Of a stretch of 64,000 nt of DNA, positions 22,496-53,584 are shown piece by piece. The notes below the pieces were generated by a model that had not been told where the DNA came from, did no database searches, and saw only the letters and a program-made list of their open reading frames with translations. The position numbers were made by a program, and so were the translations under genes. The DNA lies in assembly GCF_001984175.1 (NCBI RefSeq), contig NZ_MTQP01000060.1, positions 124,001-188,000 of the forward strand, written 5' to 3'. This stretch comes from Saccharothrix sp. ALI-22-I. GTDB lineage: Bacteria > Actinomycetota > Actinomycetes > Mycobacteriales > Pseudonocardiaceae. The stretch's first letter is position 1, and the number at the start of each line of letters is the position of its first letter.

Positions 22496-23283
22496 CCGCC
22501 CCCGACCGCCTGGCACAGCTGGAGCAGCGCGTGGCCGCGCTGGAAGCCGACAACTTCGAGCTGGTCACCGAAGTCCACGAACTGCGCGGCCTGACCCAGT
22601 GGGCGGCCAAGGGCCTCGACGACGTCGAAACCTCCGTCCGCACCCTGGCCATGCACTACGTCGAACACGCCGACACGCTCACCACCCTCACCCGCCAGGG
22701 CACCCCCGGCGACGACCCCGACGGCCCCGACGGCCCCGGCCCGTCCGTGTTCGACGAGGGTCTTTTCGGCGCCTACGGCCCCGACCGGGAGCCGGGAGCC
22801 GACAGCGGGGCGGGCGGCCCCGTCGCCGGCGGTGTCGACGTGCTGTTCGGCGGCGGCGACCTCGTGCCGCTGTTCGACGGCGGAGCACCACCCCCCGACG
22901 GCACACCGACCGCCGGAGCGACCCCCGGCCCGGACCTGCCGGTCCTGCACGCGTGGGTGGAAACCCACATCGCGCCGATGGTCCGCAAGACCAGCACCTC
23001 CGGCGAAGGCAACGGCATCCGCTGGTGCCGCACCTGGTGGCTGCACCACGACGCCGTCCAGCGCTTCATCGCCTTGTTCCTGTCCTGGCACGAACTGTCC
23101 GGCGAGGAATCCGCGACCTGGCTGTCGGTCTACCTGCGCGACCACCTCGACCCCCACCTGAGCACCCTGACCAGCCCGTTCGGGCCGTTCTACCTGTGCT
23201 CGCCCACCCGCCACAGCGACGCCACCCAGCCACTGGGCCAAGCCGACCTCAGCCAGGCACCGGCACCGGGAGCAACGGCATGA
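22492..23283 (+). CDS. DUF4913 domain protein
   Basis: The 263-aa protein has an N-terminal coiled coil (RLAQLEQRVAALEADNFELV), a Gly/Asp/Pro-rich linker (about 70-145) and a C-terminal DUF4913 domain. The domain is marked by the Trp-rich core GIRWCRTWWLHHDAVQRF and LYLRDHLDPH-type motifs. DUF4913 proteins recur beside TraG-like ATPases in actinobacterial mobile elements; their role is unknown. It is translationally coupled to the coupling ATPase before it and to the next gene after it. Confidence 0.8.
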   Translation: MTAPDRLAQLEQRVAALEADNFELVTEVHELRGLTQWAAKGLDDVETSVRTLAMHYVEHADTLTTLTRQGTPGDDPDGPDGPGPSVFDEGLFGAYGPDREPGADSGAGGPVAGGVDVLFGGGDLVPLFDGGAPPPDGTPTAGATPGPDLPVLHAWVETHIAPMVRKTSTSGEGNGIRWCRTWWLHHDAVQRFIALFLSWHELSGEESATWLSVYLRDHLDPHLSTLTSPFGPFYLCSPTRHSDATQPLGQADLSQAPAPGATA

Positions 23284-23675
23284 ACAACTCCTCCCACGAC
23301 CACACGGCCCCGAATCCCCAGGCGGCCGGCATACCCGACGTGGCTGCCTCGATGGCGGCCTTGGAAGCGAACTGGGTCGACCTCACCGATCACATTCGTC
23401 GACTCCGTGACTTCGACGCGCGAACCGCGGTCGGACTCGACGGGCTGTTGGAGGAACTCACGGAGCTCGCGGACGGAGTCTTCGCCGTCATCGACCCGAT
23501 CGCCTGGACACAGGCCCGCCTCGGCACCCACGGTCTGACCACTCCCGCCGTCGACCTCTCCGACCCGCAGCGAACCCACCAGGACAGCACAAGCAGCCCC
23601 CGCGCAACCGACCACACGGGCGAGGCACCCGGCGCCACCGCCTCGCCGGAACCACCCGCGGGGAGCCGACCATGA
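23280..23675 (+). CDS. Small hypothetical protein, helical core
   Basis: The 131-aa protein starts at the ATG overlapping the previous stop. A helical core (VAASMAALEANWVDLTDHIRRLRDF through LLEELTELADGVFAVIDPI) is followed by a disordered Pro/Thr/Ser tail. There is no membrane segment and no family is recognised. The stop overlaps the ATG at 23672 that opens the giant frame. It is probably a cytoplasmic accessory protein of the transfer operon. Confidence 0.65.
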   Translation: MNNSSHDHTAPNPQAAGIPDVAASMAALEANWVDLTDHIRRLRDFDARTAVGLDGLLEELTELADGVFAVIDPIAWTQARLGTHGLTTPAVDLSDPQRTHQDSTSSPRATDHTGEAPGATASPEPPAGSRP

Positions 23676-26600
23676 CCACACCCGGCCATCCGACGGGAGG
23701 GCCCGGCGACGACCGCGTGCCGAACCCCGACGTGCACACTGGTCCCGAGGAGGAAGTCCATGCCGATGAACCACTACGGGCTCCAGGCCAAAGAGCACTG
23801 GCAGAAGGACCGGCCGCAGGAGTACGCACGACTGGAGGACCCGGAGGCGTACTTCACGCAGGTGGGCGAGGACCTGGAGGAACGGATCGACCAGCGCAGG
23901 CTGGCCTTGGAGGCGACGGCACCCTCGACCTCGAGCTACCTGGCCAACGTGGCGGCGCTGAACACGGCCTGGCAGACAGCGGAGTCGGAGGTGCTCAGGG
24001 AATACTTCGGGGAGGACGAGACCGGCCCGGAGACGACGCCGGAGTAGCCCGCTTCACCCCCGAGAGCCAGGACGACTTCGCCCGCTCGGGTGCCAGGACC
24101 AAGGTCCGCGACAACCTCGCCGCGTTGCGGGTGCTGCGCCTGCTCGACGAGCAGGACAGGCCCGCCACCGCCGAGGAACAGGCCGTGCTGGCCCGCTGGG
24201 GCGGCTGGGGCTCGGTGCCCCAGGTGTTCGACAAGCCGGAGTTCGAGCAGGAACGCGCCGAACTGCGCGAGTTGCTCAGCGAGGCCGACTACGCCGAGGC
24301 GTCCGCCTCCACGCTCAACGCCCACTACACCCACGCCGGGATGGTCACGGCAATCTGGAACGGCCTGGCCCGCCTGGGCTTCGCCGGCGGTGACGTGCTC
24401 GAACCAGGCTGCGGCCCGGGGCACTTCATCGGCCTGGCGCCCGAGGACGCACGGATGGTCGGCGTCGAACTGGACCCGACCACGGCCGCCATCGCACGGG
24501 CCCTCTACCCCGACGTGCACGTCGTCACCGGCGACTTCGCCGACCTGGACGCCGCCGAGGGCAGCTTCGACGCCGTCGTGGGCAACGTGCCCTTCGGCGA
24601 CTGGCAGGTGCGCGACGAACGCCACAATCCGGGCACCCGGCTGGTGCTGCACGACCACTTCATCGTCAAGAGCCTGCACCTGGTCCGGCCCGGCGGCCTC
24701 GTGGCGGTGCTGACCTCGTCCGGGACGATGGACAAGATCAATCCCGAGGCGCGGCGGCGCATGGCACAGCTGGGCGACCTGGTCGGAGCGATCCGCCTGC
24801 CCACCGACGCCCACCAGCGCGCCGCCGGCACCGACGTCGTCACGGACCTGCTCATCCTGCGCCGCCGCCACCCCGACGAGCAGATCCGGGTGCACTCGGA
24901 GACCTGGGAGCGGTCGCTGCCGGTCGAGATCGGCCAGGACGGCACCGTCCTCAACGTCAACCGCTATTTCCTCGACCACCCGGAGAACGTGCTGGGCACG
25001 TTCGACGCCCAGCGCCGCCAGTACGACAGCAAGGAACTCGTGGTCCGCGGCGACCCGGCCACCGTCGTGGAACAGTTCGCCGAGGCGGTGGACCGGGTGG
25101 CCGGCGAGGCCCTGTGGGTCCGGTTCACCCGTCCCCTCCCGACACCTGCGGCCGAGACGCGCCCGCTGGGACAGATCGGGCTGCTGGAGGCCGAGGACCG
25201 GCGTTTCGACGGCATGTTCACCGCCCACGACGACGGCACCTTCACCCGGCTGGTCCGCGGCGAGCAGCAGCCCTACGAGCCGCCCGAGGACGAAGCCGAC
25301 GAACTGCGCCGCCTGATCTCCCTGCGCGACATCACCATCGCCCTGCACCGCGCCGAACAGACCACCGTCGAGGACAGCGCCGAGATCGCCGGGCTGCGCG
25401 CCCGGCTCAACAGTGTCTACGACGACTACGTGCGGCTCTACGGGCCGGTCAAGCGGTTCACGGTCACCGAACCCCTGGAGCAGGGCCGCTACGTCTACGG
25501 CAAGTGGTGCGACAAGCGCAACCTCGACAAGTACCCGCCCACCGCCGAGCAGCTCGCCGAGTTCTTCACCGGCCTGCGGAACCAGGGAATCGGCCAGGAC
25601 CTGCTGTCGACGTACCTGGAGTCGATCCGCAAGGACCACGCCAACGCCCGCAAGCGCCGGGTGAAGAAGGCGATCAAGGTTCTACTGGACAGTGAGCAGT
25701 ACAGGGGCGCCGAGGACGCGCAGAGCCTGCTGGACGCGCTTGCCGAGTCCAACCCCGCTCTGCTGCTGTCGCGGGCCGAGATCAAGGACATCCCGCCGCG
25801 TCCGGACGCCTACCCGCCCGCCGAGACGATCATCGCCACCGCGCCGCCGGAGACCGATCCCGACCTGGACCTGGACGAGCTGGGGCTCAGGACCACCAGG
25901 ACCGAGCACCCCAAGCAGGGCGGATTCCGCCGCGACCCCCTGTCCAGCCGGGTGCGGGGCCTGGAGGACTACGACCCGGCCGCCGGCACCGCCCGTAAGT
26001 CCGACATCTTCACCAAGCGCGTGTCCAACCCGCGACCGGAGCGCCTGGGCGCCGACACCCCCGAGGAAGCGCTGTCGATCTGCCTGGACAGCCACTCCCG
26101 GGTCGACCTCGACGTGATCGCCGAGTTGCTCGGCATGCCCGACGCCGCACAGGCGCGCGAAGCGCTGGGCGAGCTGGTCTACGACGAACCCGGACGCGAG
26201 GATCCGGTGTGGGCGCGGGAGTACCTGTCGGGCAACGTGCGCGCCAAGCTCGCCCGCGCCCGCGAAGCAGCCCGGGAGGACGACCGGTTCGCCGTCAACG
26301 TCGCCGCCCTCGAACGCGTGGTGCCCGCCGACCTGGGGCCCGCGGAGATCGAGATCCGGCTCGGCTCCTGGATCGGCCCCTCCTACGTCCAGCAGTTCCT
26401 GCGCGAACTGTTGGACGACCAGGGCATCCGCGTCGAGGAGAAGCTCGGCTACTGGGCGATCACCGGCGGCAACGAGAACTCCGTGCTGGCGACCCAGATC
26501 TGGGGCACGGCCGGCAAGCACGCCCTGGACCTGGCCCAGGACCTGCTCGACGGCCGCGAGATCGTGGTGACCAGGATGGTCCCCACCGTGAGGGGAGGCG

Positions 26601-29600
26601 AGGCCAAGGAGGAACCGGTCTTCGACCCCGAGGGGACCGACCTGGCCTTGGACAAGGCCGAGGAGATCGGGGACCGGTTCGCCGGGTGGGTGTGGGAGGA
26701 CACCGACCGCGCCCAGGAGTTGATCACCCAGTACAACGACCTGTTCAACTCCGAGATCCCGCCGGACTACTCCGGGATCGAGTTGTCCCTGCCGGGCCTG
26801 TCCGACGTGTATGCGCTCGAGCCGCACCAGATCAACGCCATCGGCCGGGTCATCTACCAGCCCGCCACCGGCCTGGTGCACGGCACGGGCGCAGGCAAGA
26901 CCCTCGAAATCATCGTCGGTCTCATGGAACGCCGGCGACGCGGCCTGTCGAACAAGCCGGTCGTGGTGGTGCGCAACGACAGCATCGCGGCGCAGTTCGA
27001 GACCGAGTGGATGCGGGCCTACCCCAACGCCACCCTGCTCGTCGCCACCAGTCACGACCTGCGCATCGACAGGAAGAAGGGGATCAACTACCGCGCCGAC
27101 TTCGTCTCCTACGCGGCCGAGAACGACTTCGACTGCATCATCATGACCAAGGAGGCGTTCCAGAGGATCCCGGTCGAGCCGGAATTCCAGGAGAAATGGC
27201 TCCAGCGTGAACTGGACGCGCTGCTCGCCGCCAAGACCGGCTCGGAGCAGGACGGCAGCAGCAAGACCATGACCAAGACGCTGGAGAGGGCGGCCAAGCA
27301 AGCCAAGAAAACCCTGGAGGACATGATCGCCGGCGTCCCCCGTGACGCCGAAGGGGCCACGTTCAAGGATCTGAAACCCGACATCGTCGGCTTGGACGAG
27401 GCACAGGACTGGAAGAACGGCATGATCCACAGCCAGTCCGCCGACCTTGCGATCGCCGGGGCCAAGCGGGCCATCGACCTGGACATGAAGCTGGACTGGC
27501 TGACGGAGCAGTACGGCGGACCGCGCGTCGTCCTCGCCACCGCCACGCCGTTTACCAACAAATTCACCGAGGTCTACCTGTGGATGCGTCGACTGGGACA
27601 CAAACTGCCCCACTTCGACGCGTGGATCCGCACCTACTGCGTCGCGCTCTCCACCATGGAGATGACTCCGGGCGGCACCCTCAAGTCCAACTTCCGGATG
27701 CGCGGCACCATCAACGAGCCGGAACTGTGGCTGGCGCTGCGGCTGACGTCCGATTTCAAGAGCAAGAAAGAACTCGGACTTCCCGAGCCGCGCTTGCGCG
27801 GTGGACGCATCCGCGTCCTGCAGGCATCCGCGCCGGAGGAAGCGCGGATCTACACCCTGGACCTCGCGCGCCGCGAACGGATCATGAAGCAGGCCGCGCG
27901 CGACGGCGAGGACGAGGACGAGGAGAACCTCAAGGACATCGCGCTGACCATCCACAACGACGGCGAGAAGGTCGCCCTCGATGTGCGACTGGTCGGCCTG
28001 ACCACCGACGAACCGCAGAAGATCGACGTCGTCGCCGACGACATCCACGAGCAGTGGGAGGCGAACAAGGACAACGTCTACCTTCGCCGCGACGGCACCG
28101 AACACCCCGTCCGCGGCGGCCTGATCCTGGTGTTCTGCGACCTGTCCACCCCCGGCAGGGGGTGGAACGTCTACGACGAGTTGAAAGACCTCCTGGTCCG
28201 GAGGGGCATGCCCGCGGATTCGATCCGCTTCATCCACGAGGCGGGCAACTCGCCCGAACGCAAAGCGAACCTCTACGCGCTGGCGCGCGACGGCTCCGTG
28301 TCGGTGCTGATCGGCTCGTCCTCGAAGATGGGCGCGGGCCTCAACATCCAGGATCGTGCGACCGACGGCTACGAACTGCACGGCCACTGGCGTGCGGACA
28401 TCAGTCCGCAGAACCAGGGTCGCATTTTCCGGCAGCACAACCAGAACGCGGAGGCCGGATACACGAGGGCGGTCACCTCGCCGTCGATGGACGCGAAGAA
28501 GCACGAGATCGCACTCCAGAAACTCAACATGTTCGCACCGCTGTACTCGAACGAGAAGCCCGCCCGCAGCCGCATGCTCGACGACAACGAGGCGATCGAC
28601 CTGGCGGATGTGATGGCGGCGGCCACCGGAGACCGTCGCTACCGCGAGAAGGCCGAACTCGACCAGGAATACAAGCGTCTGTCCCGGCAGGCCGACGCCC
28701 ACCACCGCAACCAGCAACGGCTCAAGTACGAGATCGCCAAAGCCGCCGAGACCATTCCACGCCTGGAACGGTTCAAGGCCCGGCAGGAGGAACAGCTCAC
28801 GCGGCTGGTCGACACCCGCGGTGACGCTTTCGCGATCACCCTGGCCGGCGAGCACCACACCAAACGCGCCGAGGCCGCCGAGTCGCTCAAGGCCACGCTG
28901 ATGCAGGAATGGGCATCGACCCGCCTCGGCGCCCGGTGGCGGACCGTCGCACTGGGAAGCCTCGGAGGGTTCGACTTCGAAGCCGCGATGAACCGCAGCT
29001 CCTTCTGGGACAACGGCATCCTACTGCGTTTTCCCGAACTCGCCGAGTCCATACCGGAAGTCTGGTTGAAGGGCGCGGAACTGCCGGACAGGCACGGCAT
29101 CATCACCCGGCTGGAGAACGCACTGCGTGAACTGCCGGACGCGGTCCTCGTCACCGAGGACAACATCCAGCAGGCCAAGCAGGACCTGTCCGCCGCCGAG
29201 CAGGAGGTGGGCAAACCGTTCCCTCTCCAGCAGCGGCGGGAGGAGGTGGCGAAACGACGCCTCGAACTGATCGCCGAACTGGCCGACCCCTTCGACGACT
29301 TCGTCGACCCCAACCTGCCCGCGGACTCGCCCGAGGCCATCGCCCGCGCCCAGCGGATCGAGGCTCACGCCGCGCTCATGCGCGAGGTGCAGGAACACGC
29401 GACGTCGTTCGCGCGCGTCAACGGGTTCCGCGACGAGGCCGCCGAACGCTTCGCCGGCTGGTACGTGGCGATCGTCGACCGGGTCAGCGTCGACAAGCAC
29501 CCGTCGCTGGAGAAGTCGCTGAAGGTCTGGTTGCAGATCGGCTCCCCCGACCGCAGCGAGCGCGGCCGGAAAGCGGACTCGCGCGGCGGCGGACAGGACG

Positions 29601-44600: not shown

Positions 44601-47600
44601 TCATCGCGCTCCGTGGCGCGTTCCTCGCGGCGCGAGCCGGCCGCGACAGGGTGGGGCTGTTGTGGTTGGGCAGCGCGCTGCTCCTGGATCGTCACGACGT
44701 CGACCACCCTGCCGTGGGGGTGGTCTACGACGCCCTGGCCGCGCACGCGACCGGCACCGGACTCGATATCGACGACCACGCCCGGCGCCTGGCGCAGGCC
44801 GGACATGGCTCCGATACCGCCGAGGCCCTGCATGTCCTGGCCGACTGGATGCTTTCCCTGGCCGAACAGGCGAAGAGGGACGAAGAAACGTCCGACGCGG
44901 CGGAAGGCCCGGACGAAACACCTTTCGCCCTGCTCGCGAGCACGGCCACCGCGGTGGCCGACGGCATCATCCGACACGGCGAGGCCGCGGAACCGGAGGC
45001 GGTCGCCGACCCCACGACACCGGCCTTGGGCGCCGCCGCCGATGATGCCCGAGAGCCGGGAGACGAGGTCGCGGCTCACGGCGACGCGGCCGAGGCGAGC
45101 GCCGAGCCCGATCCGAGCACGCTTGCGGACGCGCTGGACGAACCGCCGGCGCGCCCGGCGGGACGCGAGCTGTTCCCGGATGTCCCCGGCCAGGAACAGC
45201 CGTCCGTGGACCTGCTCGGCACACCGTTCCCCGTCGCGCCCGAGCTTGCGGACTTGGCCGGTGTCGAGCATTTCGGGGCGTGGGCCCGGCAGCAGGAGGA
45301 CCGGTTGCCCGGCGAGGTCGACGGGGTGCCGACCCCGCCGGCGCGTGTCGCCCTGGCAGTCGCCCGCTTGGTCGCCGCCAGCGGCGGTGACCTCCCGACC
45401 CGCCAAGTCGCGATCCGGGTGGCCTACGAGGACCTGTTCCCGCTGCACACCGCCGTGCGGGTGCGGCAGTTGGCCGACCTGGTCGACACGCTGGTACCCG
45501 ACGCCGAGGCGCTGCGGGAGGCCCTGGGCACCCACCGCAAGGGCCGCACCTTCACCGAGCAGTTGCGCGCCGTCGGCGACCGGATCGAGCGGATCGCCCG
45601 CAACCCGATGACGTTGGCGCGGGCCCAGGCGCACGCGCTGTTCAAGCAGGTGACGGCCCTTACCGTCGAGGGCGCGGCCACGGCGTTGCAGGACGGCGAC
45701 GGCGGGGACCCGGTGCGGGACTTCCTGGGCCACACCGTGTCACCGACGCTGCTGGCGGTCGTGGACCCCTTCGCCCTGGGGGTGCTGAAGGACTCGTTCA
45801 CCGCTCTGGTGCGCGGTGGACGGTTCGACCCGCAGCAGCGGGCGGAGAAGGAAGTCGACGCCGGCCGGGGGTTCCGGACCGCGGTCATGCTGCGTGCCCT
45901 GGCGGTCGAGGCCAGGGCCCGGATCAGCGTTGGCGATCCGGCGGGGCGGGCACTCAAGCGCCACGCCGGGATGGGAGTGGTCGTCCAGCGCCTGGAGCAG
46001 GTCGCGCAAGGCATGGCCGACTCGGGCTGGTTCGACCTGCCCGACGCCGACGCGCCGTCCGCGCCGTCGCGACGGGTGCGGCAGAGCCCCGGCGTCGCGC
46101 CCGTCGACGCGCCCGAGGACGAACCCCTGACCGAGGCCGACATCGTCCGGGGGTTGTCCACCTACCTGGACGGGCCTGCCTTCGCCCGCCTCGTGTACGA
46201 CATCGAGCAGGAGGAGCTCGGCTCCCCGTTCCGCGACGCGGACGGCAACGCGCCCATCGGCGGCACGGGAGTCGACGGCACCCGCGTCGAGTACGACCCG
46301 AAGTCGATCACGATCGACATCTACACCCCCACGCAGCACCACCAGGGGCGGATGACCTGGAAGCAGGTGCACGACTTCGTCCGGCCCGGCATCACCCCCG
46401 CCGCCGGCCGCATCCTGCTCGACGCCACCACCGCGCGCCAGGGCTTCGAGAACGCCCTCAGCCGGTTCGGCGCGCTCGGTGAACAGCACCTTGCCCGCGA
46501 CGTCGTGCGAGAGCTGTCGGACTACCAGAGCCGGGCGATGGACACGATTCTGGCCGCCGCCCGTGCGGCGCGCGAGGCGGGCACGGCGCGCAAGGCGACG
46601 CGCCGCAGCCGCAGCGACTCCACACGCCTGGCGAGGAAGCTCCTCGTCCCGGTCGAGGAGTTGGAGAACCTGTCCGCGGACGACGCCGCGGTCCTCGACC
46701 GGATAGCCGTGCTCAGCATCCACCTGCCCTCCGGACCGGCGGCATCCAAGAGGACGTCCAGCCTCAAGCCGGGCGACACGCTCGACCGCGACGGCGAGCC
46801 GTTCCGGTTGGACACCGGACCGGCCGTGGCCGACGGCCACCTTGAGCTGACCGGATATCGGTTCCCGACCAGCGGAGAAGCCGGTGAACAGGAGGTGTGG
46901 CGGCTTCCTCTCGACGGTGACGCCGCCGAACCGCGACTGGACCTGGCGGTGTTGCCCGAGTCGCTGGCCGACATCGGTGCCCCACCGGCGTTGCCGTCCC
47001 CGGCAGTTCCCGACGCACCGTCCGGGACGACGTCCACCGGTGTGACCGGCGCCGATGACCTCGACCCGGCCGAGTTCGGCTGGCATCGCGTCGAGCGGGC
47101 CTTCGACGAGCACGACCGCACGGTCGAGCGGTGGCACCGGGGCACCTCCACCCTGATCCTGCTGTGGCAGGTCACCGATCAGGGCGTGGAGGTCGTCAGC
47201 CCGGTGTCGATCGACGGCACCCGACATCACGTCCAGGCCTTCGATCAGCTGTACCGGCTGCTCACCGACAGCAGCGGCGCGAGCACCGCGCCGGTCGACG
47301 AGCAGCCGGCGGAGCAGGAACCGGTTGAACAGCCCGACGACCCGCAGATGGGGCTGTTCAACCTCGCAGAGCCCGCCCCGATGCCCGTATCGAGCACCGC
47401 CGGGACCGAGGGCGGTCCTCACGCGGGGGCACCCGGTGAACCCTTGCCTGCGGCACAGCCCCACCCCGGGACCGGTGCGACCGGGCAGTCCGAACAGGAC
47501 ACGACCACAGGCGAAGACACCGTGCCCGCCTCCGTGCAGCCTGGGGACAGCCCGCTGCGTGACGGGACGGCCAAGCTGTTGTGGACGGTGGGGAAGGGAC

Positions 47601-50557
47601 ACGCCGGCAAGTGGCAGACCCTGATCGGTGAGGTCGAGCGCGCCGGCTACCGCCATGAATCCGTCCCCGGAGCCGGCTCCGGCGGGATCGACCACGACAC
47701 GCGCACGCTGGTCACCGACCCGACGATGCTTCTCAAGGACAGGGTCGTCGTGCTCGCCGACCATGTGGTCGCCATGTACGTGCACGTCAATCACGCCGCG
47801 GCCGAAGTCTTTGTGGACACCGTTCTGCGCGAGCACGACATCTTCGACCTCGGCGAGTCCGATCGCGATCTGGGGCCGGCCATGTCGGCGATTTCAGCGG
47901 CGGGAATCGAATTCCCCTCCACGCTCTTCGACTCGTTGCGGCACGTCGCGGCGCTGCGTCGCATCGCCGAGGTGGCCCCCTCCACGGCCGGTTCGCGTTT
48001 CCGGCTGCGGGACGCCGACGGGGTCACGATCGCCGAGCACGACCACCTGGTGATCGACCCTGTCGAGGAAGAACAGCTGTGGAACTGGGGCAACCTGCTC
48101 ATCACATCCTGGGTCCGCGGCGACGACAGGCAACCCGTTCTGCGACTCGCCGCAGTCGATGCGCCCCACATCACCTTTGGCGTGAAGTTGGTCGACGACA
48201 TCACCACGCCACGCACCTATCTCTTCAATGGGCTGATCTCCGAAGGTCCGGTGGAGCGGGTAGTGCGCCACGTGGTCGCCACGGCCGGTGAGCAGGCACG
48301 ACGACGGCGACTCGATGCGATCCGAGCAGCAGCCATGCAGTTGCCCCTGTCACCAGTCGCGGCCCCGGCCGACAGCGCGGTCGTGGCGCGGCAACACCTG
48401 GAGCCGGCGAGGGCAGCCGAGGCCGTAGGCGATGAGCACATCCTCGCCGCGCAGACCGTGGACATCGGCGACACCGACCGGCAACCGCAGGCACAGCCGG
48501 CCGCAGGACCGACGGCACCCGCCGACCCGGGCAGCGCGCAACCTGCCGCGGACACCGCGTCGGTCGGGCTGTTCGGCCTCGACTCGGGCCCCGTCACGGT
48601 CGAACAACCCGACCAGGTACTCCCTTCCGACCAGAGCACCGCCGCAGCAGGCGAGGTCACGACACCGGGAGACGACCTACCCCGTTCGCTCGACATCGCC
48701 GCCCAGGACGGGCCCGCGCCGATGGGATCGGCGCAGTCCACGGGCACTGCGCCGACGTCCGACGACCCCGCCGGGTACGTCGACACGGCCGGGACGACAC
48801 GCGAAGTGCCCGAGTCGCCTCAGCCGCCGGAACGGTTCGCGGCGTCCGACGAACCGCCCGGCCCCATCCCGGCCCCATCGCGAACAGGACCCCAAGCGCC
48901 GCAGCCGTCAAGCCGCGAATCGGTCTCCCGGACCGCCGCCGAGCCCGTCGAGGACGCACCGGCACAGGACGAGCACGGCCCGGATCGGGCCCGCGGGCGC
49001 CTCGTGGACGTGGTTGAGGGAGCACCGGCTGAGGTGACGTCCACTGCACTACCCCCGGCGGTCCTCGACCCGGCACCTTCCGACGCGCCAACCGTCGCCT
49101 CGACCTCGTCCGTTCCGGACGGCCCGTCGCCGCAGACCGCCGGGCCCGTCACCGTGCCCGTGACGCCCGGGAGCGCCGCCCGCGACGACGACGTCGACAC
49201 CGACCGGCCGGAAACGTATTCGCCTGTATCCGAGGAGACACAGGACGCCCGGCACGACCGCCCCGCGCCGACGCCGGCTTCGGTCGACCTCGCGGGTGAC
49301 GCCGACTTCGAGGAGGACTTCCACCACGACGTGGAACCCGAGGCCATGACCGACGATCGCCGCGCCGATCCGGACGAGGAGGTCGAGGACGACAGCCACG
49401 ACCCCTTCTACGCCATGGCCGACGATCCCGAGTTCGCGCTCGGCGAGGGCGGGACAGCCGCCGAGGTGGACATCCCGCCGTCGGTCGAGACCGAGACCGA
49501 GCGGTCCGTGAAGCCGGCAGTTCCAGTGGACGCCGGCCCCACTCCCACTCCGGAGCCGGCACCGATGCCGGTCGAGCCGGTCGAGCCACCGTCACCGGCC
49601 GCCGATCCGATCCGGGCAGGCGAGGGAGGCACGGCGACGCAACACCCTCCGGCTGGGCGGGGCACCGCACAACCCGATCCGCGCACCGAGGTCGAACCGG
49701 CCGCCGGGATCCGCGGCGAGGACACGACACCGACCGGACCGGCACCGGCAGCGGGGTGGTTCGACCCCGTGACCCCGGCACCGGAGGAAACGTCCACCGC
49801 GACCGTCGACGACCTCCGCGGGTCCGATCGCGCCGAGGACGCGGCCACGGCCGGTTCCCGCGAGGAACCAGGCGACCTGCGGGATGCGATCAGGCGGAAC
49901 TGGGCGGACTTGGTGGCCGACGCCGCCGCACTCGGGTTCTCCGTGCGCGGCAGCTGGAGAGCAGGCGGCTCCACAGTCGATCACGACACCGACACCATCG
50001 TGATCGCGAACGGACAGGGGCCGATCGAACGGCTGGTGGACCTGGCCACACACCTGGTGCGGATCGACACCGAGCGCTCCGGGCTCGCCCGTCGACAGGT
50101 CGACCACCTTCCCCTGCAACGGGCGACCGAGCCACAGACCGCCGACCTCGACCCGATCCGGCCGCTGCTGCTCGACGTGCTGTCCGAACCGCCCGACATG
50201 CCCTTCGAACCGCGGACCGCCGACCTCGACCCGATCTGGCCGCTGCTGGTCGACGTGCTGTCCGAACTCCCCGACGTGCCCTTCGAACCGCAGACCGCGC
50301 CGGTCACGACGGTGTTCCACTCGCCGGGGCACTGGACGATGTCCGGATTGTTCGACGAACCCCTGCCACGCAGCGGTCACCACGGCGACGACGGGCAAGC
50401 CCGGACACGGTGGGCGAGCCCGACGGACACCCGGCCACGACAGGACCTGGTCGTCTCCGCGGCGCCGGCCGCTCACGGCGGGGTCGACGGGCGCTTCCCA
50501 GGGCGCGGCACCGCCCACACAGGCGGGGTCGGACCCGCGCGAGGGGGGTCGCGGTGA
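23672..50557 (+). CDS. Giant polyvalent protein: DNA methyltransferase, SF2 helicase, SF1 helicase, primase
   Basis: One uninterrupted frame of 8961 codons. Credible sequence starts at about residue 127 (RFTPESQDDF). The methyltransferase has a SAM motif DVLEPGCGPG (D241) and catalytic NVPF (305-308), as in DarB-like adenine methylases. The SF2/Snf2-like helicase has GTGAGKT (K1076), DEAQ (1242-1245), TATPFTNK (about 1290) and QGRIFRQ (about 1582-1588). The SF1 UvrD-like helicase has AGTGKT (K4276), DEVQD (4467-4471), GDTYQSIYGFRGA, STAHKAKGREW and VTVTRAK. A DnaG-type primase core lies at about 5997-6340, with TOPRIM E6159 (EGPMD) and D6209/D6211 (LDGDGPG). Between them are repeated unnamed modules and an acidic Pro-rich region (about 8270-8730). 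This matches the polyvalent-protein concept in phages and conjugative elements: one injected or early protein that shields and replicates incoming DNA. The true start is unresolved. Confidence 0.88.
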   Translation: MTTPGHPTGGPGDDRVPNPDVHTGPEEEVHADEPLRAPGQRALAEGPAAGVRTTGGPGGVLHAGGRGPGGTDRPAQAGLGGDGTLDLELPGQRGGAEHGLADSGVGGAQGILRGGRDRPGDDAGVARFTPESQDDFARSGARTKVRDNLAALRVLRLLDEQDRPATAEEQAVLARWGGWGSVPQVFDKPEFEQERAELRELLSEADYAEASASTLNAHYTHAGMVTAIWNGLARLGFAGGDVLEPGCGPGHFIGLAPEDARMVGVELDPTTAAIARALYPDVHVVTGDFADLDAAEGSFDAVVGNVPFGDWQVRDERHNPGTRLVLHDHFIVKSLHLVRPGGLVAVLTSSGTMDKINPEARRRMAQLGDLVGAIRLPTDAHQRAAGTDVVTDLLILRRRHPDEQIRVHSETWERSLPVEIGQDGTVLNVNRYFLDHPENVLGTFDAQRRQYDSKELVVRGDPATVVEQFAEAVDRVAGEALWVRFTRPLPTPAAETRPLGQIGLLEAEDRRFDGMFTAHDDGTFTRLVRGEQQPYEPPEDEADELRRLISLRDITIALHRAEQTTVEDSAEIAGLRARLNSVYDDYVRLYGPVKRFTVTEPLEQGRYVYGKWCDKRNLDKYPPTAEQLAEFFTGLRNQGIGQDLLSTYLESIRKDHANARKRRVKKAIKVLLDSEQYRGAEDAQSLLDALAESNPALLLSRAEIKDIPPRPDAYPPAETIIATAPPETDPDLDLDELGLRTTRTEHPKQGGFRRDPLSSRVRGLEDYDPAAGTARKSDIFTKRVSNPRPERLGADTPEEALSICLDSHSRVDLDVIAELLGMPDAAQAREALGELVYDEPGREDPVWAREYLSGNVRAKLARAREAAREDDRFAVNVAALERVVPADLGPAEIEIRLGSWIGPSYVQQFLRELLDDQGIRVEEKLGYWAITGGNENSVLATQIWGTAGKHALDLAQDLLDGREIVVTRMVPTVRGGEAKEEPVFDPEGTDLALDKAEEIGDRFAGWVWEDTDRAQELITQYNDLFNSEIPPDYSGIELSLPGLSDVYALEPHQINAIGRVIYQPATGLVHGTGAGKTLEIIVGLMERRRRGLSNKPVVVVRNDSIAAQFETEWMRAYPNATLLVATSHDLRIDRKKGINYRADFVSYAAENDFDCIIMTKEAFQRIPVEPEFQEKWLQRELDALLAAKTGSEQDGSSKTMTKTLERAAKQAKKTLEDMIAGVPRDAEGATFKDLKPDIVGLDEAQDWKNGMIHSQSADLAIAGAKRAIDLDMKLDWLTEQYGGPRVVLATATPFTNKFTEVYLWMRRLGHKLPHFDAWIRTYCVALSTMEMTPGGTLKSNFRMRGTINEPELWLALRLTSDFKSKKELGLPEPRLRGGRIRVLQASAPEEARIYTLDLARRERIMKQAARDGEDEDEENLKDIALTIHNDGEKVALDVRLVGLTTDEPQKIDVVADDIHEQWEANKDNVYLRRDGTEHPVRGGLILVFCDLSTPGRGWNVYDELKDLLVRRGMPADSIRFIHEAGNSPERKANLYALARDGSVSVLIGSSSKMGAGLNIQDRATDGYELHGHWRADISPQNQGRIFRQHNQNAEAGYTRAVTSPSMDAKKHEIALQKLNMFAPLYSNEKPARSRMLDDNEAIDLADVMAAATGDRRYREKAELDQEYKRLSRQADAHHRNQQRLKYEIAKAAETIPRLERFKARQEEQLTRLVDTRGDAFAITLAGEHHTKRAEAAESLKATLMQEWASTRLGARWRTVALGSLGGFDFEAAMNRSSFWDNGILLRFPELAESIPEVWLKGAELPDRHGIITRLENALRELPDAVLVTEDNIQQAKQDLSAAEQEVGKPFPLQQRREEVAKRRLELIAELADPFDDFVDPNLPADSPEAIARAQRIEAHAALMREVQEHATSFARVNGFRDEAAERFAGWYVAIVDRVSVDKHPSLEKSLKVWLQIGSPDRSERGRKADSRGGGQDVDMPIDDEAVPTVVDGMWEEITPQQVPHAEPDPTSAEPTPTRPADMPPRDSAPARPSETTPATTPAATGGRAAGPRPTRPGSAPPGRDRPARAARARAEHTRKSLPTLLREWAETTGHQVDIGTETGDQGPLMVYKVDGARLERHHLTEVMETGSLTWPLQPASQRRPASVPETAPTTTLGNDLPDPAPTHATGTDGTPPGSPGDDSPTASDVWLRERTLQQLAGPDAVDTLRNAVEEIERANYYYLRSADVEYGTVDNTERIVFSRAGLPPADELRDLLPFLQAIREEVNRDAAEAAVEGILTAHDVHDEDHGDELRRAITEAGVRGPAEWAVLGALRDVAALRRIAAAAPSTKDARLRLLNGREESVAELGWLPLSRRNSQVWARWGEMEIGASRQGGGRWLLHLAAADAGHMLYEVEADFDNGDRVMRATVATAAKTAQQRLLDAVNIVAAALPIPQPAHSPTASAPGGEPAVRLDSAVPEPAGIDFAHRGALRPADLVQELGITAEQAEWMNRVFVRVSLADTVHDTVRDHAGELTAAINAGDVQHRLVGEIGTVLGRHLLEPTRDRENHGRQSSFPEAVAVVSGRYRDEPFAARVRQLALEVMVGRLLRNLGAPLPQLIEHHAADMGLAVEPQHAVWLRDWITQAANDPGIRQTALNNDKGRLGQVLTGHLIDTSWTAFDEATRLNTLLPDHVFDDRYARLWHDLARHVVFDHVRGLRDVGLSAAYPMPAVEADTSDAALDAATGTTDGEHHEIGGRPTGTTDRDTVEPWDVAAVSSELRHVVGLDEPQAGWLVGELVGLSMSGAVRATVRNTPDNLWAMLPGEITRVFTVPLTALGSAGDEAVVPEALAPARRFANEPEFAAEVTRIASAFVRARTERDLAADLPRLIGHLMNDLGLPRDPAHAALLRDWIGAAATDETVLELARTSEADEFAEHVLGEFLQERAITSAAEDPGVDDTVAGYVLDQTPQATHWLALARNVVVDTAHGLGPALDATPAPDEPRATPPARPERAEKTEPGPDRVATPVEQQQPADAPEPAPGVDVTAVEPEDYAHLRTVAAHRRLRARAVADEFTAWEKQVDAVAWAREIAATTPPGGLRVHDTDTSRWKITTAAGVTVIGGKSFYRGDRSVAPRVSQEQADDLAARLVALRNDEGNPAPFAASDWAVWSYGWRDADGRTFTDAVNLVAEAWAAAYGFRIVGLREPTVALPPGGITDTEGFSLGRPASEVAPGDVVRVDGEPRRVVESGPRTIQYPVKYGRRTRSLTRQIHRLTFDDGTALQLLGDGARLDVRFAAHPDAITAGHDPGMGRWVSLPEPLRYTGYVDHFTVIDTADATAEWVRRIAPGTALLFTPRADTVYDGRARVGEVTAQVAHFPHRQTSPKREYEHVVRFADGTFDVLDLDDADRVTVAPDAEQLRQALDAWNSAPPVPPQPRDLPDPAPAPPRPERPTLGHVEAILRDHGLDRTGEVKERGGSYLDGARPELAPQEFVIEWFRPADTITSRFVVLEAGISSAGVITWVQERPGVLDGTNPRITEPELHQVLEAAGIAPETAAADERSSGHAPGHERQDHATQAATPVRDKPRPEGVAVEEDAVDVQDATVLSDDQRNTAEVVLSTVSGATPDATRDLLHAEITDAGYTWTNTAGVGVGRLDHTSRTLHTDPSWSGEDELLALADGVGDLRKHLHDDTAQAVIDALLVENPTLTADLDDLKTVVQALRTAGVQSPIGQFIRDRLATATALRHISHVASSIENEVVRTRNPGTGELGRALDVDEDWSRLVGSRTGSTGELVWGRLRINASREIAGGLSLALSSESAPGAVHRVRAAGPSARLVVVETVTTAAGTMRQARQAAVRAVARHLPISSDTLPAHLDRIRPLLLEHGWRHTATVEKGRFPEPKPYAYELIWERGTQRLELIHAGDDVLGKAVLDGRRLPATPLGLRAGIQTPSAAPDAPTDTPATPVDAADVRPSTVDIPHQPVPAQAADATVDGRDEPGGPDKADAPEAATGAADGSAEQTRVLTVHFSTAAGGLILGTADTDDIFDTLQPERAGWKWRQVRNSPDGAARAWVLPKSHDQNRTGRSLVNFHGRLVRKLTGAAKRLSDAGFEVRFDIRDLPQRVLTRFEEWQARNLPAAPPVPAPVPTAAVPQDDTPGDPRPVGAPTPGATPAHGFTVVARPGPWTRRIGIRVTGDTAIVSGTQPDDPKTLRAALLDNGFKYTRELNGWEYVPGRRRVTREEAVQALRETLRALDEQVAERRAARSGPTFPPTPQQQAIIDAYAAGQDVAVRALAGTGKTTTLRLLAAWLERHAPETTIVYVAFNRSIADEAQEAFGSNVIADTMHAFARQALRNDPRYADKINATIAKKDGWPEDVARDLGLGLDQTSRRLLAGDPDADHTVGRFAGMALATVKNFRESPDAGIGRGHLPATVIDARSRDLEALVLDYARRIWADKTSPQGRLAFTHDDYLKIWALGNPTLPGQVIFFDEVQDVNGLQAALVQAHTAQTVVVGDTYQSIYGFRGARDFLTGWPADAVLDLTKSWRFGTAVQDLGNQFLELLGSDLRLEGNPALDTRLEPVPDPDAVLARTNAGAVAAVVEGFEAGRRVALVGGGDDLKDIAKAAQALQRGRRTRHPELKNFRTWSDVRRFVDDNDEGKSLRAFVKMVDKYGPEELIRLADDLVDEHATAEDLKPQLIVSTAHKAKGREWDRVKIADDFKGPTVDDEGNTVLPEPEELRLSYVTVTRAKLRLELGSLSWIHDFTPASATTAAPAPSPRRAVAPEDTPDVRAQTAPSLITPAPPFTAPDPASPLDARGDEPALAPGADDVRVGPDPVVVVHFSHHDGLRLLVPADLDVEPVLAATQAGWAPGQSIPEQRAPMAWTLPRTRAVTLDGHRLARFHDRLVFRIDEVMTGLVLAGMPVRLETGQLPDSVVERLPEWQVVPAPGLLPGRLAKADDEALRREAQLEQQRQKRFRQQHAELRREIRQALTAAAYLWTPATAPDGGEIDSRIDHDAREIVTDRSLPDLEQTLELSALLDEVTEHREGLAEQARTLLLERNGDNEQQWQQAARWWADSVTLDLVAQAAAAALISRNERFVIPGAVISDQLNKFTTAPALLFFARCARDGLRPSQAQGKPANVLLFSDHLTLGDTVIRFTAEEGAVSAELGAKDHGHHYRVEIDTAWLDAPDGGEKIRDLLMDSIRHAARRADDLRRDLVSALTTAAASTPAQPPSPVASAEQPAATVTDAAAVQTPSGQAETGPTDTTSITPVRREPDEALPTSAGSDEAPEDEPLALFGAEDAGVDPAEFALAQRLPKRTTLDPDADRALSQAMSDNRVTGWQLEQLLDLHTQGDPDDTESWLPKWKLLHTDPLSPSHYYSAPHPDYNRVIGRWTAALALELAKHGMTVRHFRSNAKSITTQHEVHDDLGVLLLNSRLPAGTQASILTDALAQRRQGTVHATSETDGWRPDPVIERDTRLLLRLPASSGFDLEADVALDRLLPDTSITGADVDRLLELYAQGEKGKTDTWLPAHEMMSTDPRTGRRYGGNDGEDFARVVNRWNAVLTRALAGHGLVVRHFRPGSRRERLHHEVHDDLDVVLLNSRIPPITQAQALTGVLADVRRRAPAQSDTEASRTPEPRRETAPRDATPQTAQATVSQPSLTWWREQADPHGLDVRVVRVADKAWITVRERHASDLPIPPALSYSVDTGQVVDGAARPMPLSAVADYLARYRESVPEELFAAPAAMTDWARRVANLAPYAVVGSHYLPEVSALLDNAHHAVVDGDLDEAENWMRAAEARVDKAVGGHRLTPEREQQVLRVIGDYAAAYASIAPDVGRFLTESPNLLNGSEREWEWINNHLGDHPELRHRRPPDDAAIRARNAAERAEQERRGKEIEKQAVAAYSDGDLVRSLELLDAAEIADPVQRQYWDNLRVAIREQSATAQGDAAARTAVEADAVVDAAVSTMPTPTAGPSPTAETTLATGPAAATPSRLAEEQDQAFPTAAADIEDPASITAERLLARYAAINQAAADWFERQYDQSRTARRYLEDRLGGAEKVALARGRAGSGVGLTIGYAPHQRTVLVEHLRTLGYRDQDMVDAGVAGHTGKGVQDFFRDRIVFAIRDEQGRIAGFTGRALYDNVTPKYLNTRATPLFDKSSLLFGLWEQRDLIGHALPVVIEGPMDVAALRAAGPQQRLLPAATLGTAVTPHHWDLLDRVLPAGQQRAVGLDGDGPGVKAALRATEFGVRRHADLLATILPDDMDAAEFAKVRSSEELIAAYFDPRYTHPALDVLVESRIAVFADRLQEVEGQVGAGREVARLLVDVGLEHAVGRVNRLDTRLGTRPGAMAAFVVEAWLDAQAPGGTDAVPRVVELLAAMDDERADELMDDIATALRLTRNRLADLVVSALNSRPSVTADDGDTMAEAATSDHVPVVVPPRGPDQPVIDTDPLVVRARESGLSARVDLIGDRWWITLAEPAAPATPVLTWPDKSLNVITGTGATFGLPRAHFYLDNYRQNVPVDQETEHAKALGVPTSVPGWAERVARLLPYTLTGPSYRRGVGEHLDTAIRMARHGARDDEALHWLERAERLAPTLPVPPVDNAPVVEEASAGTTASEAAPDLTAAEIERRYDEEGYQLIAGLTEVPALLEQHHWHLLEANQEEFGGVVTGHWRRHDVSLSLAVTPPEEGHRTLTWAAVLYGPFEDNRWREGEFLTAEALRRFVEHAGLYGIARPTRLPGRWRVQTVDHPDDLVAAFAEEPDGSQAQIAVRAADAVQEDWYFTVGEAPIPLAPPLPDIPAEDRDQLVTWLLGDNDRSLRPWVSFVLGGKAPKGHKYLDFPEGFAHLAEHDRELYRRAVAASAGRPARNGKFKLDKARTALERLIEGDPSLPLNSVGSYVEIRAGDAPEGWHVNQRGLTRGVVLDVRVSRVVGQMVIAIERDEPDKRGKLLAWAEVEPDTVLKVLALEQRPARREPDVLAVLRSPEHLIASSELADPSSFIALRGAFLAARAGRDRVGLLWLGSALLLDRHDVDHPAVGVVYDALAAHATGTGLDIDDHARRLAQAGHGSDTAEALHVLADWMLSLAEQAKRDEETSDAAEGPDETPFALLASTATAVADGIIRHGEAAEPEAVADPTTPALGAAADDAREPGDEVAAHGDAAEASAEPDPSTLADALDEPPARPAGRELFPDVPGQEQPSVDLLGTPFPVAPELADLAGVEHFGAWARQQEDRLPGEVDGVPTPPARVALAVARLVAASGGDLPTRQVAIRVAYEDLFPLHTAVRVRQLADLVDTLVPDAEALREALGTHRKGRTFTEQLRAVGDRIERIARNPMTLARAQAHALFKQVTALTVEGAATALQDGDGGDPVRDFLGHTVSPTLLAVVDPFALGVLKDSFTALVRGGRFDPQQRAEKEVDAGRGFRTAVMLRALAVEARARISVGDPAGRALKRHAGMGVVVQRLEQVAQGMADSGWFDLPDADAPSAPSRRVRQSPGVAPVDAPEDEPLTEADIVRGLSTYLDGPAFARLVYDIEQEELGSPFRDADGNAPIGGTGVDGTRVEYDPKSITIDIYTPTQHHQGRMTWKQVHDFVRPGITPAAGRILLDATTARQGFENALSRFGALGEQHLARDVVRELSDYQSRAMDTILAAARAAREAGTARKATRRSRSDSTRLARKLLVPVEELENLSADDAAVLDRIAVLSIHLPSGPAASKRTSSLKPGDTLDRDGEPFRLDTGPAVADGHLELTGYRFPTSGEAGEQEVWRLPLDGDAAEPRLDLAVLPESLADIGAPPALPSPAVPDAPSGTTSTGVTGADDLDPAEFGWHRVERAFDEHDRTVERWHRGTSTLILLWQVTDQGVEVVSPVSIDGTRHHVQAFDQLYRLLTDSSGASTAPVDEQPAEQEPVEQPDDPQMGLFNLAEPAPMPVSSTAGTEGGPHAGAPGEPLPAAQPHPGTGATGQSEQDTTTGEDTVPASVQPGDSPLRDGTAKLLWTVGKGHAGKWQTLIGEVERAGYRHESVPGAGSGGIDHDTRTLVTDPTMLLKDRVVVLADHVVAMYVHVNHAAAEVFVDTVLREHDIFDLGESDRDLGPAMSAISAAGIEFPSTLFDSLRHVAALRRIAEVAPSTAGSRFRLRDADGVTIAEHDHLVIDPVEEEQLWNWGNLLITSWVRGDDRQPVLRLAAVDAPHITFGVKLVDDITTPRTYLFNGLISEGPVERVVRHVVATAGEQARRRRLDAIRAAAMQLPLSPVAAPADSAVVARQHLEPARAAEAVGDEHILAAQTVDIGDTDRQPQAQPAAGPTAPADPGSAQPAADTASVGLFGLDSGPVTVEQPDQVLPSDQSTAAAGEVTTPGDDLPRSLDIAAQDGPAPMGSAQSTGTAPTSDDPAGYVDTAGTTREVPESPQPPERFAASDEPPGPIPAPSRTGPQAPQPSSRESVSRTAAEPVEDAPAQDEHGPDRARGRLVDVVEGAPAEVTSTALPPAVLDPAPSDAPTVASTSSVPDGPSPQTAGPVTVPVTPGSAARDDDVDTDRPETYSPVSEETQDARHDRPAPTPASVDLAGDADFEEDFHHDVEPEAMTDDRRADPDEEVEDDSHDPFYAMADDPEFALGEGGTAAEVDIPPSVETETERSVKPAVPVDAGPTPTPEPAPMPVEPVEPPSPAADPIRAGEGGTATQHPPAGRGTAQPDPRTEVEPAAGIRGEDTTPTGPAPAAGWFDPVTPAPEETSTATVDDLRGSDRAEDAATAGSREEPGDLRDAIRRNWADLVADAAALGFSVRGSWRAGGSTVDHDTDTIVIANGQGPIERLVDLATHLVRIDTERSGLARRQVDHLPLQRATEPQTADLDPIRPLLLDVLSEPPDMPFEPRTADLDPIWPLLVDVLSELPDVPFEPQTAPVTTVFHSPGHWTMSGLFDEPLPRSGHHGDDGQARTRWASPTDTRPRQDLVVSAAPAAHGGVDGRFPGRGTAHTGGVGPARGGSR
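23760..24047 (+). CDS. Small helper protein nested at the start of the giant frame
   Basis: The 95-aa protein has a strong ribosome-binding site, GAGGAGGA, about 7 bases upstream. It has normal protein composition, with helices around KEHWQKDRPQEYARL, DPEAYFTQVGEDLEERID and YLANVAALNTAWQTAESEVL. Small proteins of this DPEA(Y/F)FxxxGE type precede large methyltransferase-helicase genes in actinobacterial mobile elements (recollection, not checked). It overlaps codons 30-125 of the giant frame in another phase. There the giant frame reads as Gly/Arg/Pro-rich noise, so this ORF is the real coding frame in that stretch. Its TAG lies at the point where the giant protein's homology begins. Confidence 0.75.
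   Translation: MPMNHYGLQAKEHWQKDRPQEYARLEDPEAYFTQVGEDLEERIDQRRLALEATAPSTSSYLANVAALNTAWQTAESEVLREYFGEDETGPETTPE
30287..50100 (+). repeat. Repeated protein modules inside the giant ORF
   Basis: At least five module types recur. A: about 230-250 aa at residues 2206-2433, 3596-3847, 4957-5200 and 7979-8230, and partly at 8737-8810 (pattern GIDHDTRTLVTDP and VAALRRIA.APST). B: tandem at 2464-2706 and 2748-2977. C: 4001-4110 and 4812-4927 (VHFS...WVLP...FHxRLV). D: tandem at 5282-5437 and 5455-5604 (TWLP, VRHFR, HEVHDDL, LLNSR). E: 5638-5785 and 6420-6574. Boundaries are by eye. Confidence 0.65.
50135..50290 (+). repeat. 78-bp tandem repeat (2 copies) near the giant ORF end
   Basis: Two in-frame 26-codon units (50135-50212 and 50213-50290) encode QTADLDPIRPLLLDVLSEPP-type repeats ending in PFEP. 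Differences are few, so the duplication is recent. A third start (QTA) follows. Confidence 0.85.
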
Positions 50558-51084
50558 CCGGCGAACCGGCCACGGGTGAGCCGACGATGCCTCGGGCACA
50601 CCACCAGGACCCACCGGCCCCCTGGCTGCACCACGCCTACGTGCACGCGGTGACGCAGGCGCTGCTCCACCACCGTGTCCGGATCGTCGGCCGTGAGGTC
50701 GTGCTGTTGCCGGGCCCGCCCCGGTTCGCATCCCTGGCGATCGGTGAACCCGTCCCCGACTCCGACTGGCCGGACACGTTCTGGCCGGACGCGGAGTGGA
50801 TGCGTCTGCTGTGGGACGAGCACACCGGGTGGTCCTGGCGGGTGAAGCTCGCACACGAGCCCTCGGCCCGTGACGCCGTCCACTTCGACCTCACACCGAC
50901 ACCCGCACCGGGAGTGCTGGCGACCTGGGTACGCGTGCTGCTGGCGCACCGCGACGTCGCGATCACACGCCACACCGACCCGCGGACGTCGCCGGTGTGG
51001 CCGGCGAGCGCCGTGGATGCCGCGCTCGCCGCCTACGAGGCCGCGCGGCGCGCGGAGACGGAGGTGACCGACGAGCACGACTAG
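50554..51084 (+). CDS. DUF6292-like protein
   Basis: The 176-aa protein starts at a GTG that overlaps the giant gene's stop (GTGA), so it is translationally coupled. The core, HHAYVHAVTQALLHHRV followed by the Trp/Asp-rich DSDWPDTFWPDAEWMRLLWDEHTGWSW, and VLATWVRVLLAHRD resemble DUF6292 proteins of actinomycetes. Their function is unknown. There is no signal or membrane segment. It is the last gene before a strong hairpin, so it probably closes the transcription unit that includes the giant gene. Confidence 0.75.
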   Translation: MTGEPATGEPTMPRAHHQDPPAPWLHHAYVHAVTQALLHHRVRIVGREVVLLPGPPRFASLAIGEPVPDSDWPDTFWPDAEWMRLLWDEHTGWSWRVKLAHEPSARDAVHFDLTPTPAPGVLATWVRVLLAHRDVAITRHTDPRTSPVWPASAVDAALAAYEAARRAETEVTDEHD

Positions 51085-53414: not shown

Positions 53415-53584
53415 AAGCGGTTACTGCGCTGCCGGGGAGTCGGGCGACACCACTGACCTCCGGCGGCCCAGGTGGCCAACCGACACCGCGCCGACGCGGA
53501 TCTCCGTGAAGTCGAACTCGAACAGAGCATGTTCCGGCTTGTGCGACCCCTTCCCGGATTCATCATCACAATGGCTGGACAACC

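Follow-up and report, generated by a model that had tools for sequence, protein, structure and literature searches.

A giant polyvalent protein gene joining methylase, SNF2, UvrD and primase modules in a transfer operon of Saccharothrix sp. ALI-22-I, with a TnpV-like reading frame nested at its 5' end

We describe a single reading frame of 8961 codons (23672–50557, +) that joins modules of four DNA-processing enzymes: an adenine methyltransferase, an SNF2-type translocase, a UvrD-type helicase and a DnaG-like primase core. It lies in a 64,000-nucleotide stretch of the genome of Saccharothrix sp. ALI-22-I, referred to here as the window. We think that the giant is one polyvalent protein, probably an establishment machine that acts on DNA arriving in a new cell. 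Judging from the sequence, its 5' end appears to be dual-coding, with a TnpV-like gene nested in it and the large frame held open through that gene.

The window corresponds to bases 124001–188000 of a 269-kb contig in a draft genome of 10.3 Mb and 69 contigs. The frame runs from ATG to TGA and contains no N; it has no internal stop, as the first-pass annotation had described it, and the near-megadalton product announced there agrees with the computed mass of 971,056 Da (971 kDa; pI 5.0). Base composition alone predicts about 113–156 stops over the frame where none is observed, and the GC content at third codon positions is 0.81–0.94 in each 500-codon block. The draft state of the assembly, with its 69 contigs, could suggest an artefact or a frame left open by chance at high GC. 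We give this practically no credence, because the stop count is far under expectation and homologous long frames occur in independent assemblies, including the complete plasmid of Amycolatopsis sp. AA4.

Two of these homologues, from A. rubida and the AA4 plasmid, are colinear nearly from end to end. In a MAFFT alignment 22,201 of the 22,229 aligned nucleotides share the frame, and 23 of the 24 indels are multiples of three, the sole exception preceding the likely start. When blastn gaps were counted for the same pair without regard to frame, 25 were divisible by three and 21 (of 46) were not; we judge the latter to result from gap placement in repetitive stretches, and the count still stands against the single-frame reading. 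A frame broken by sequencing error, which the first-pass annotation had raised, is thus unlikely, given the recurrence of long single frames in independent assemblies and the prevalence of triplet indels in this pair.

Profile searches with Pfam, NCBIfam and PHROG models detect a methyltransferase, an SNF2/ResIII ATPase, UvrD, and the DnaG N-domain with Toprim; the NCBIfam helicase and dnaG matches lie below the full-length cut-offs of those models. The first 1930 residues, which hold the methyltransferase and the SNF2-like ATPase, match phrog_10089 ('DarB-like antirestriction', E 9e-293); for the methyltransferase, phrog_11801 matches as well. The DarB-like adenine methyltransferase module (MT, 24053–25045, +) shows motif I EPGCG, motif IV NVPF and, near residue 178, a GWGS segment that we compared by motif only with the LPD36 motif GXG(G/A/S). 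Fused C-terminal to it, as in DarB-like dyads, is the SNF2-type translocase module (25988–28738, +) with GAGKT, DEAQ, TAT and GRxxRQ. The UvrD-type SF1 helicase (U, 36149–37891, +; about residues 4234–4730) has its five motifs intact, and the DnaG-like core (P, 41678–42673, +; about residues 6000–6340) combines PF08275 with Toprim and displays EGPMD and DGDGPG.

The catalytic motifs of all four enzymes are therefore intact in the window giant, and the methylase, the UvrD-type helicase and the primase are present in one frame as first annotated. Of the 'two helicases' named there, the UvrD-type enzyme stands, while the other is an SNF2-type translocase, a group that section 14 of PMC5512222 describes as translocating on duplex without strand separation. 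Across 16 giants including the window's, NVPF is invariant and has V as its second residue in place of the P of NPP(Y/F)-type motifs; motif I was found by our search pattern in 10 of the 16. The pattern for SNF2 motif III missed all 16, although LATATPF is present in the window giant, and the patterns for Walker A, motif I, UvrD and primase missed some relatives, which we do not take as loss.

The primase matches PF08275 (7e-25) and TIGR01391 (4e-38, yet under its full-length cut-off). Since no Pfam match to the CHC2 zinc-binding domain was found in the giant at E 0.1, we call this part a DnaG-like core only. DnaG catalytic cores are the best PDB matches for it, though the structure model is poor there: an AlphaFold model of module Q plus primase has a mean pLDDT of 57.8, with most of the primase part under 50, and we therefore claim no fold for Q.

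Between and beyond the enzymes, the giant is built of further modules, several of them repeated, giving the order MT-SNF-R-X-X-Y-R-X-V-U-V-D-Q-P-Q-S-K-K-L-R-X-T. Self-BLAST at E 0.01 showed no internal repeats in the giant; a profile search did reveal them. All modules lie on the + strand. Module R occurs at 30311–30661 (a putative ImmA/IrrE-like core without HExxH, followed by a second domain), at 34514–34867 (the copy used for the structure model) and at 47630–47986. Two copies of X span 30761–32581, and Y (32828–34243) is common to the window, the Pseudonocardiaceae strain G006 and a Saccharothrix MAG. V flanks the helicase (35666–35983 and 38108–38413), followed by the R-related module D (38555–39199); Q, mostly helical in its first copy (40586–41410, directly before the primase), recurs at 42971–43495. 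S (43505–44308), K (45617–46045), L (46289–47203) and T, the last conserved block (49895–50056), follow. A solo homologue of module S is encoded downstream of the giant in the window (53510–54295, +) and in the AA4 plasmid (L003, 45003–45815).

The AlphaFold model of module R reaches a pLDDT of 85. Its first 63 residues align to IrrE/PprI and to one Mtb regulator in the top seven VIA matches (Z 5.6–8.7, rmsd 1.9–2.3); matches past the seventh have Z of 4.5 or less, and values under 8 can reflect a common arrangement. Foldseek gave no match for module R at E ≤ 0.001, and the HExxH zinc motif is absent anywhere in the giant. The model suggests that module R resembles the ImmA/IrrE core. Metallopeptidase domains occur in polyvalent proteins (PMC5512222), and module R may be such a domain in decayed form.

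The genes around the giant place it in a transfer operon, confirming an earlier claim. Upstream are a TraG/VirD4-type coupling protein (20630–22495, +), a DUF4913 protein (22492–23283, +) and a 131-aa ORF (23280–23675, +) whose stop overlaps the giant's start. Downstream, a 176-aa ORF (50554–51084, +; DUF6292 below its cut-off) has a start that overlaps the giant's stop, and a 138-aa ORF separates it from a peptidoglycan hydrolase with SLT and NlpC/P60 domains (51775–52830, +), which we take to be VirB1-like. Overlaps of 4 nt are found on both sides of the giant, within a run of overlapping genes that extends from the coupling protein to the 176-aa ORF, and a relaxase (PF03432) lies on the same contig about 8 kb beyond the window end. 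The giant is thus encoded by an element with a T4SS-like system, a feature of DarB-like polyvalent proteins. A similar gene order surrounds the 7285-aa homologue on the AA4 plasmid, which is complete, circular, 306 kb in size and of the MOBP type. The actinobacterial element that carries the giant is probably conjugative or mobilizable, and probably a plasmid. Directly preceding the transfer genes is a GGDEF diguanylate cyclase gene (11241–12542, +), and a GGDEF gene is similarly placed in the AA4 plasmid. Farther downstream, on the opposite strand, two genes (58743–59897 and 60389–63100, −) encode proteins in which only a DnaB N-terminal domain was recognised.

The giant is neither unique nor the largest of its kind. 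In a survey of 150 genomes of the family, the methylase-SNF2 core occurs in 11 (own included), four of them with open frames above 4000 codons; in a class survey of 394 genomes the corresponding figures are 22 (own included) and four. The longest open frames in 20 selected genomes, measured from stop to stop and hence somewhat over gene length, are those of A. anabasis (9863 codons), strain G006 (8812), the Saccharothrix MAG (8104), A. rubida (7666) and A. coloradensis (7213). A plasmid of Kitasatospora sp. NBC_01519 holds one unannotated ORF of 12,069 aa (L149, 5121–41330) with methylase, SNF2, UvrD and primase. Typical relatives are far smaller: of 62 frames that close within the DNA fetched around 81 core loci, 43 have 1500–2700 codons, 17 are longer and two are shorter. 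As first stated, the giant is far larger than such relatives; it is itself exceeded by the A. anabasis frame of 9863 codons and the Kitasatospora ORF of 12,069 aa.

The suggestion that it is exceptional in kind is not sustained, as such giants are already in print. Section 14 of PMC5512222 (2017) describes a 12,242-aa plasmid protein of Streptomyces viridifaciens, OJH72069.1, likewise a single giant chain, set in a conjugative context, that unites a DarB-like methylase, SNF2 and UvrD. That section makes no mention of a primase in it; we liken the two by description, and the Kitasatospora NBC_01519 protein, our stand-in for it, has all four enzymes. Toprim primases in polyvalent proteins of conjugative elements are also discussed in parts of PMC5512222. 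DarB-like methylase-SNF2 antirestriction proteins (phage P1 DarB; phrog_10089) have the same MT-SNF2 core as the window giant; in the typical relatives of 1500–2700 codons UvrD was not found and a primase is present in some only. The protein of Amycolatopsis sp. AA4 (WP_100267205.1, 7285 aa) is 49% identical over 64% of a 3000-aa N-terminal query and shares a similar operon order, the primase, the R, Q, D, K, S, L and T modules and the nested TnpV-like ORF, but differs in its module order and in that the UvrD module was not found. What is new here is the four-enzyme set with its permuted module order, and the nested gene.

To compare module order, 16 giants were mapped with profiles from window segments; as giants were chosen for size, proportions among them are not frequencies. 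MT is followed by SNF and then by variable modules, with a Q-like match ahead of MT-SNF in two giants (Streptosporangium and Planomonospora). Both UvrD and primase are present in four giants, primase only in four, UvrD only in five and neither in three. The helicase precedes the primase in the window and in A. anabasis; the Saccharothrix MAG and G006 have the reverse order. Some smaller relatives encode the primase as a solo gene or fused N-terminal to MT-SNF. This variation in module presence and order, together with the solo and N-terminally fused primases, indicates that enzymes have repeatedly been added to, and moved within, one frame. In A. anabasis, a second SNF2-bearing open frame of 1542 codons (L057, 4336–8961) lies just upstream of the giant.

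Selection along the chain was assessed in the A. rubida and AA4 pair, where each of the 30 sliced segments gives a dN/dS under one (range 0.14–0.92). The SNF2 domain has values of 0.14–0.40 and the primase 0.72 and 0.42; elsewhere they reach 0.92. Several stretches at 0.8–0.92 suggest that much of the chain is weakly constrained; that these stretches still keep the frame favours translation as one chain. Alternatively, the frame could be real and yet be expressed as several shorter proteins through internal initiation or proteolysis, and the modules are indeed separable, as the solo primases, the P-MT-SNF fusions in relatives and the variable module order attest; the possible resemblance of module R to the ImmA/IrrE core points the same way. 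We consider such expression unlikely. HExxH is missing from the whole giant, and the A. rubida and AA4 pair shows no frameshift past the start. An in-frame ATG or GTG with an SD-like site is absent within 80 codons upstream of UvrD in seven of nine giants and upstream of the primase in seven of eight, the window being among both sets; with 0.28 expected per 80 codons, this is a weak test. The search thus lends no support to the separate internal products that had been envisaged as an alternative outcome. The stop-free state of the regions between modules is partly by construction, since giants were chosen as open frames.

The nested ORF (23760–24047, +; 95 aa) overlaps about codons 30–125 of the giant in another frame, ends in TAG and is preceded by GAGGAGGAAG. 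It and its relatives make up a single family, some members of which are recognised as TnpV: four of 14 nested ORFs match the TnpV profile PF14198 (best 1e-21), and PGAP names two relatives TnpV, whereas the window copy misses E 0.01. TnpV in print is a solo transposon gene (Tn4451, Tn6104) with a postulated excision role (PMC3158075), and nesting is therefore not a property of the whole TnpV family. We found no description of such nesting in searches of the open-access literature, which covered the TnpV passages of PMC3158075, PMC5633684, PMC11913394 and PMC7785942.

The arrangement is nearly fixed. Among the 81 core loci, which include two genomes twice, there are 65 TnpV-like hits in 62 loci; relative frame 2 accounts for 59 of the 65, of which 58 have no stop in the giant frame. 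The exceptions are L081 (frame 2, with stops and an own ATG), L128 (frame 0, own ATG), two Streptomyces loci with a second, separate TnpV-like ORF in frame 0 upstream of the nested copy (L066, 9119–9373; L076, 9092–9346), and L071, L130 and L096 (frame 1 with stops); L096 has a second fragment in frame 2, and the MT/SNF frames of L071 and L130 are broken.

We compared the stops in the large frame over the small ORF with the number expected from permutation of the small ORF's synonymous codons, a model that leaves phylogeny outside and in which loci are not independent events. For 37 non-redundant loci, 15.2 (sd 3.1) were expected and none was seen, in either half of the small ORF; no such deficit is evident in the other frame (135 observed against 127.7 expected). 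This count and the 38-locus counts exclude hits with E > 1e-15, hits whose small-ORF stop lies over 300 nt away from the anchor, and hits more than 85% identical. A disjoint set of 78 viral, faecal and clostridial loci contains 38 hits, 37 of them nested (exception L224), the remaining 40 loci being without a hit. Leaving out L224 and near-identical rows (37 to 29), large-frame stops again number 0, against 16.3 expected in 10 loci with GC below 0.55 and 8.4 in 19 loci above it. No relatives came up when viral contigs were searched with a clostridial query. Among another 11 plasmid loci, five have a TnpV-like ORF, nested in all five (among them a desulfovibrio and Subdoligranulum; L229 is weak, E 2e-4), and six are without one: four proteobacteria, a cyanobacterium and a Lactococcus plasmid. 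Nesting is thus found in actinobacteria and clostridia, in a desulfovibrio and in viral contigs. A large non-actinobacterial member, the 13.9-kb 'N-6 DNA methylase' gene of the Glaciecola plasmid pGLAAG01 (L232), has no TnpV-like ORF in the stretch examined.

The two frames differ in how they are constrained. Over 10 pairs the small frame has a pN/pS of 0.40, with pN above pS in one pair (L153/L170), and the giant frame in the overlap has 1.56; among 2551 pairs below 40% identity, the giant frame is the more similar of the two in 852. These ratios indicate purifying selection on the small frame, and that over the overlap only the openness of the large frame is kept. In the 38 loci, most of them in GC-rich hosts, the small ORF ends in TAG (26), TAA (8) or TGA (4), and TGA as the small stop would place an NTG codon in the large frame.

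Since selection acts on the small frame and preserves the large one there just as an open frame, the simplest reading is that the giant is translated through the small ORF from an upstream start. ATG 23672, which lies in the 4-nt ATGA overlap with the preceding gene and follows GGGGAG, is the best-supported start from the sequence. A start downstream of the nested ORF (TTG 24125 or GTG 24131) was dropped, as conserved residues lie upstream without any start codon; the stop depletion over the nested ORF and the A. rubida and AA4 alignment also oppose it. The small ORF of Kitasatospora NBC_01519 stops about 60 nt upstream of the first start codon of the giant.

The almost constant relative frame (59 of 65 hits) could also mean that translation begins in the TnpV-like ORF and, close to the stop of that ORF, shifts by −1 to the large frame, leaving ATG 23672 unused, and 20 of the 38 non-redundant loci have no ATG, GTG or TTG between the small-ORF start and the conserved motif. 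However, all 20 of these have a start codon upstream of the small ORF (12 with a loosely defined SD-like site), the window's ATG sits in a gene overlap, and no slippery site was apparent by eye. Moreover, neither half of the small ORF contains a large-frame stop, a condition that late slippage would not require. Slippage is therefore quite improbable. Under the preferred upstream start, we tentatively propose an old dual-coding region in many methylase-SNF2 genes, in which a TnpV-family gene is selected in a fixed frame and the large frame is only held open. Such an arrangement would ensure that a small partner, such as a delivery chaperone or a regulator, is inherited and expressed together with the large T4SS-associated protein, letting module gain inflate the large gene to megadalton size with the partner retained. 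If translated, the nested gene would form a deeply conserved bacterial overlapping gene pair and give the TnpV-like family a physical, perhaps functional, partner; it would also explain why automatic annotation starts inside conserved sequence (AA4, M. zamorensis).

The establishment role that we propose for the giant rests on knowledge of the family and on operon context. The DnaG-like core would make primers for the complementary strand on incoming single-stranded DNA, with the UvrD-type helicase clearing or unwinding ssDNA. Next, the methylase-SNF2 pair would travel along the new duplex, methylating before restriction acts, and the remaining modules would serve as scaffold, DNA- or protein-binding parts. 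Action in the recipient would follow delivery through the T4SS, which is plausible, or early expression there. We infer single-chain translation, the enzyme activities, their order of action and action in the recipient. A single establishment machine, as first suggested, fits the enzymes and the T4SS operon, and the four-enzyme set is not obligatory, as only four of the 16 mapped giants carry all four.

Substrates of VirB/D4 systems are known to carry a C-terminal T4SS signal. The last 30 residues have a charge of +3 or more in 16 of 17 giants, several of them close relatives, compared with five of 43 small relatives; in eight of 17 giants and three of 43 small relatives, their charge ranks within the highest 5% of all windows along the same protein. 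The window giant's tail is mildly basic (+3, with 8.6% of its windows as high). The giants are acidic overall (−45 per 1000 aa for the window giant), the small relatives less so (median −22 per 1000). Basic tails fit such a signal and are only suggestive.

A less probable reading is that the giant works in the donor only, as a plasmid maintenance or replication factor (priming, unwinding and self-methylation against host restriction) that is not moved to recipients. It would accord with the two downstream genes with DnaB N-terminal domains, with a tail of just +3 in the window giant, and with the unfolding that an 8961-aa substrate would need to pass the T4SS. The giant's position between the coupling protein and the peptidoglycan hydrolase, with 4-nt overlaps with its neighbours, speaks against it, as do the basic tails of 16 of 17 giants relative to five of 43 small relatives and the prediction, in passages of PMC5512222, that polyvalent proteins travel with DNA. 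We therefore prefer the establishment role, which fits the enzymes and the context. The giant contributes one more case, with a set for comparison, to the very large proteins linked to conjugation in which module order changes inside a single frame, and it makes delivery of an establishment machine as one chain testable in soil actinomycetes.

In the family survey, the fragments most similar to the window core besides the window itself (58–62% identical; L016, L018 and L014, from genomes G128 and G111) are short frames on 4.8- and 5.4-Mb contigs, with two pieces 12 kb apart in G128. Elsewhere in the window, an FAD-linked oxidase gene with a cytokinin-dehydrogenase-type domain match (4000–5541, −) and a cytochrome P450 gene (8763–9950, −) lie near a LuxR-type ATPase regulator (6075–8636), and an IS110-family transposase is encoded at 213–1466 (−).
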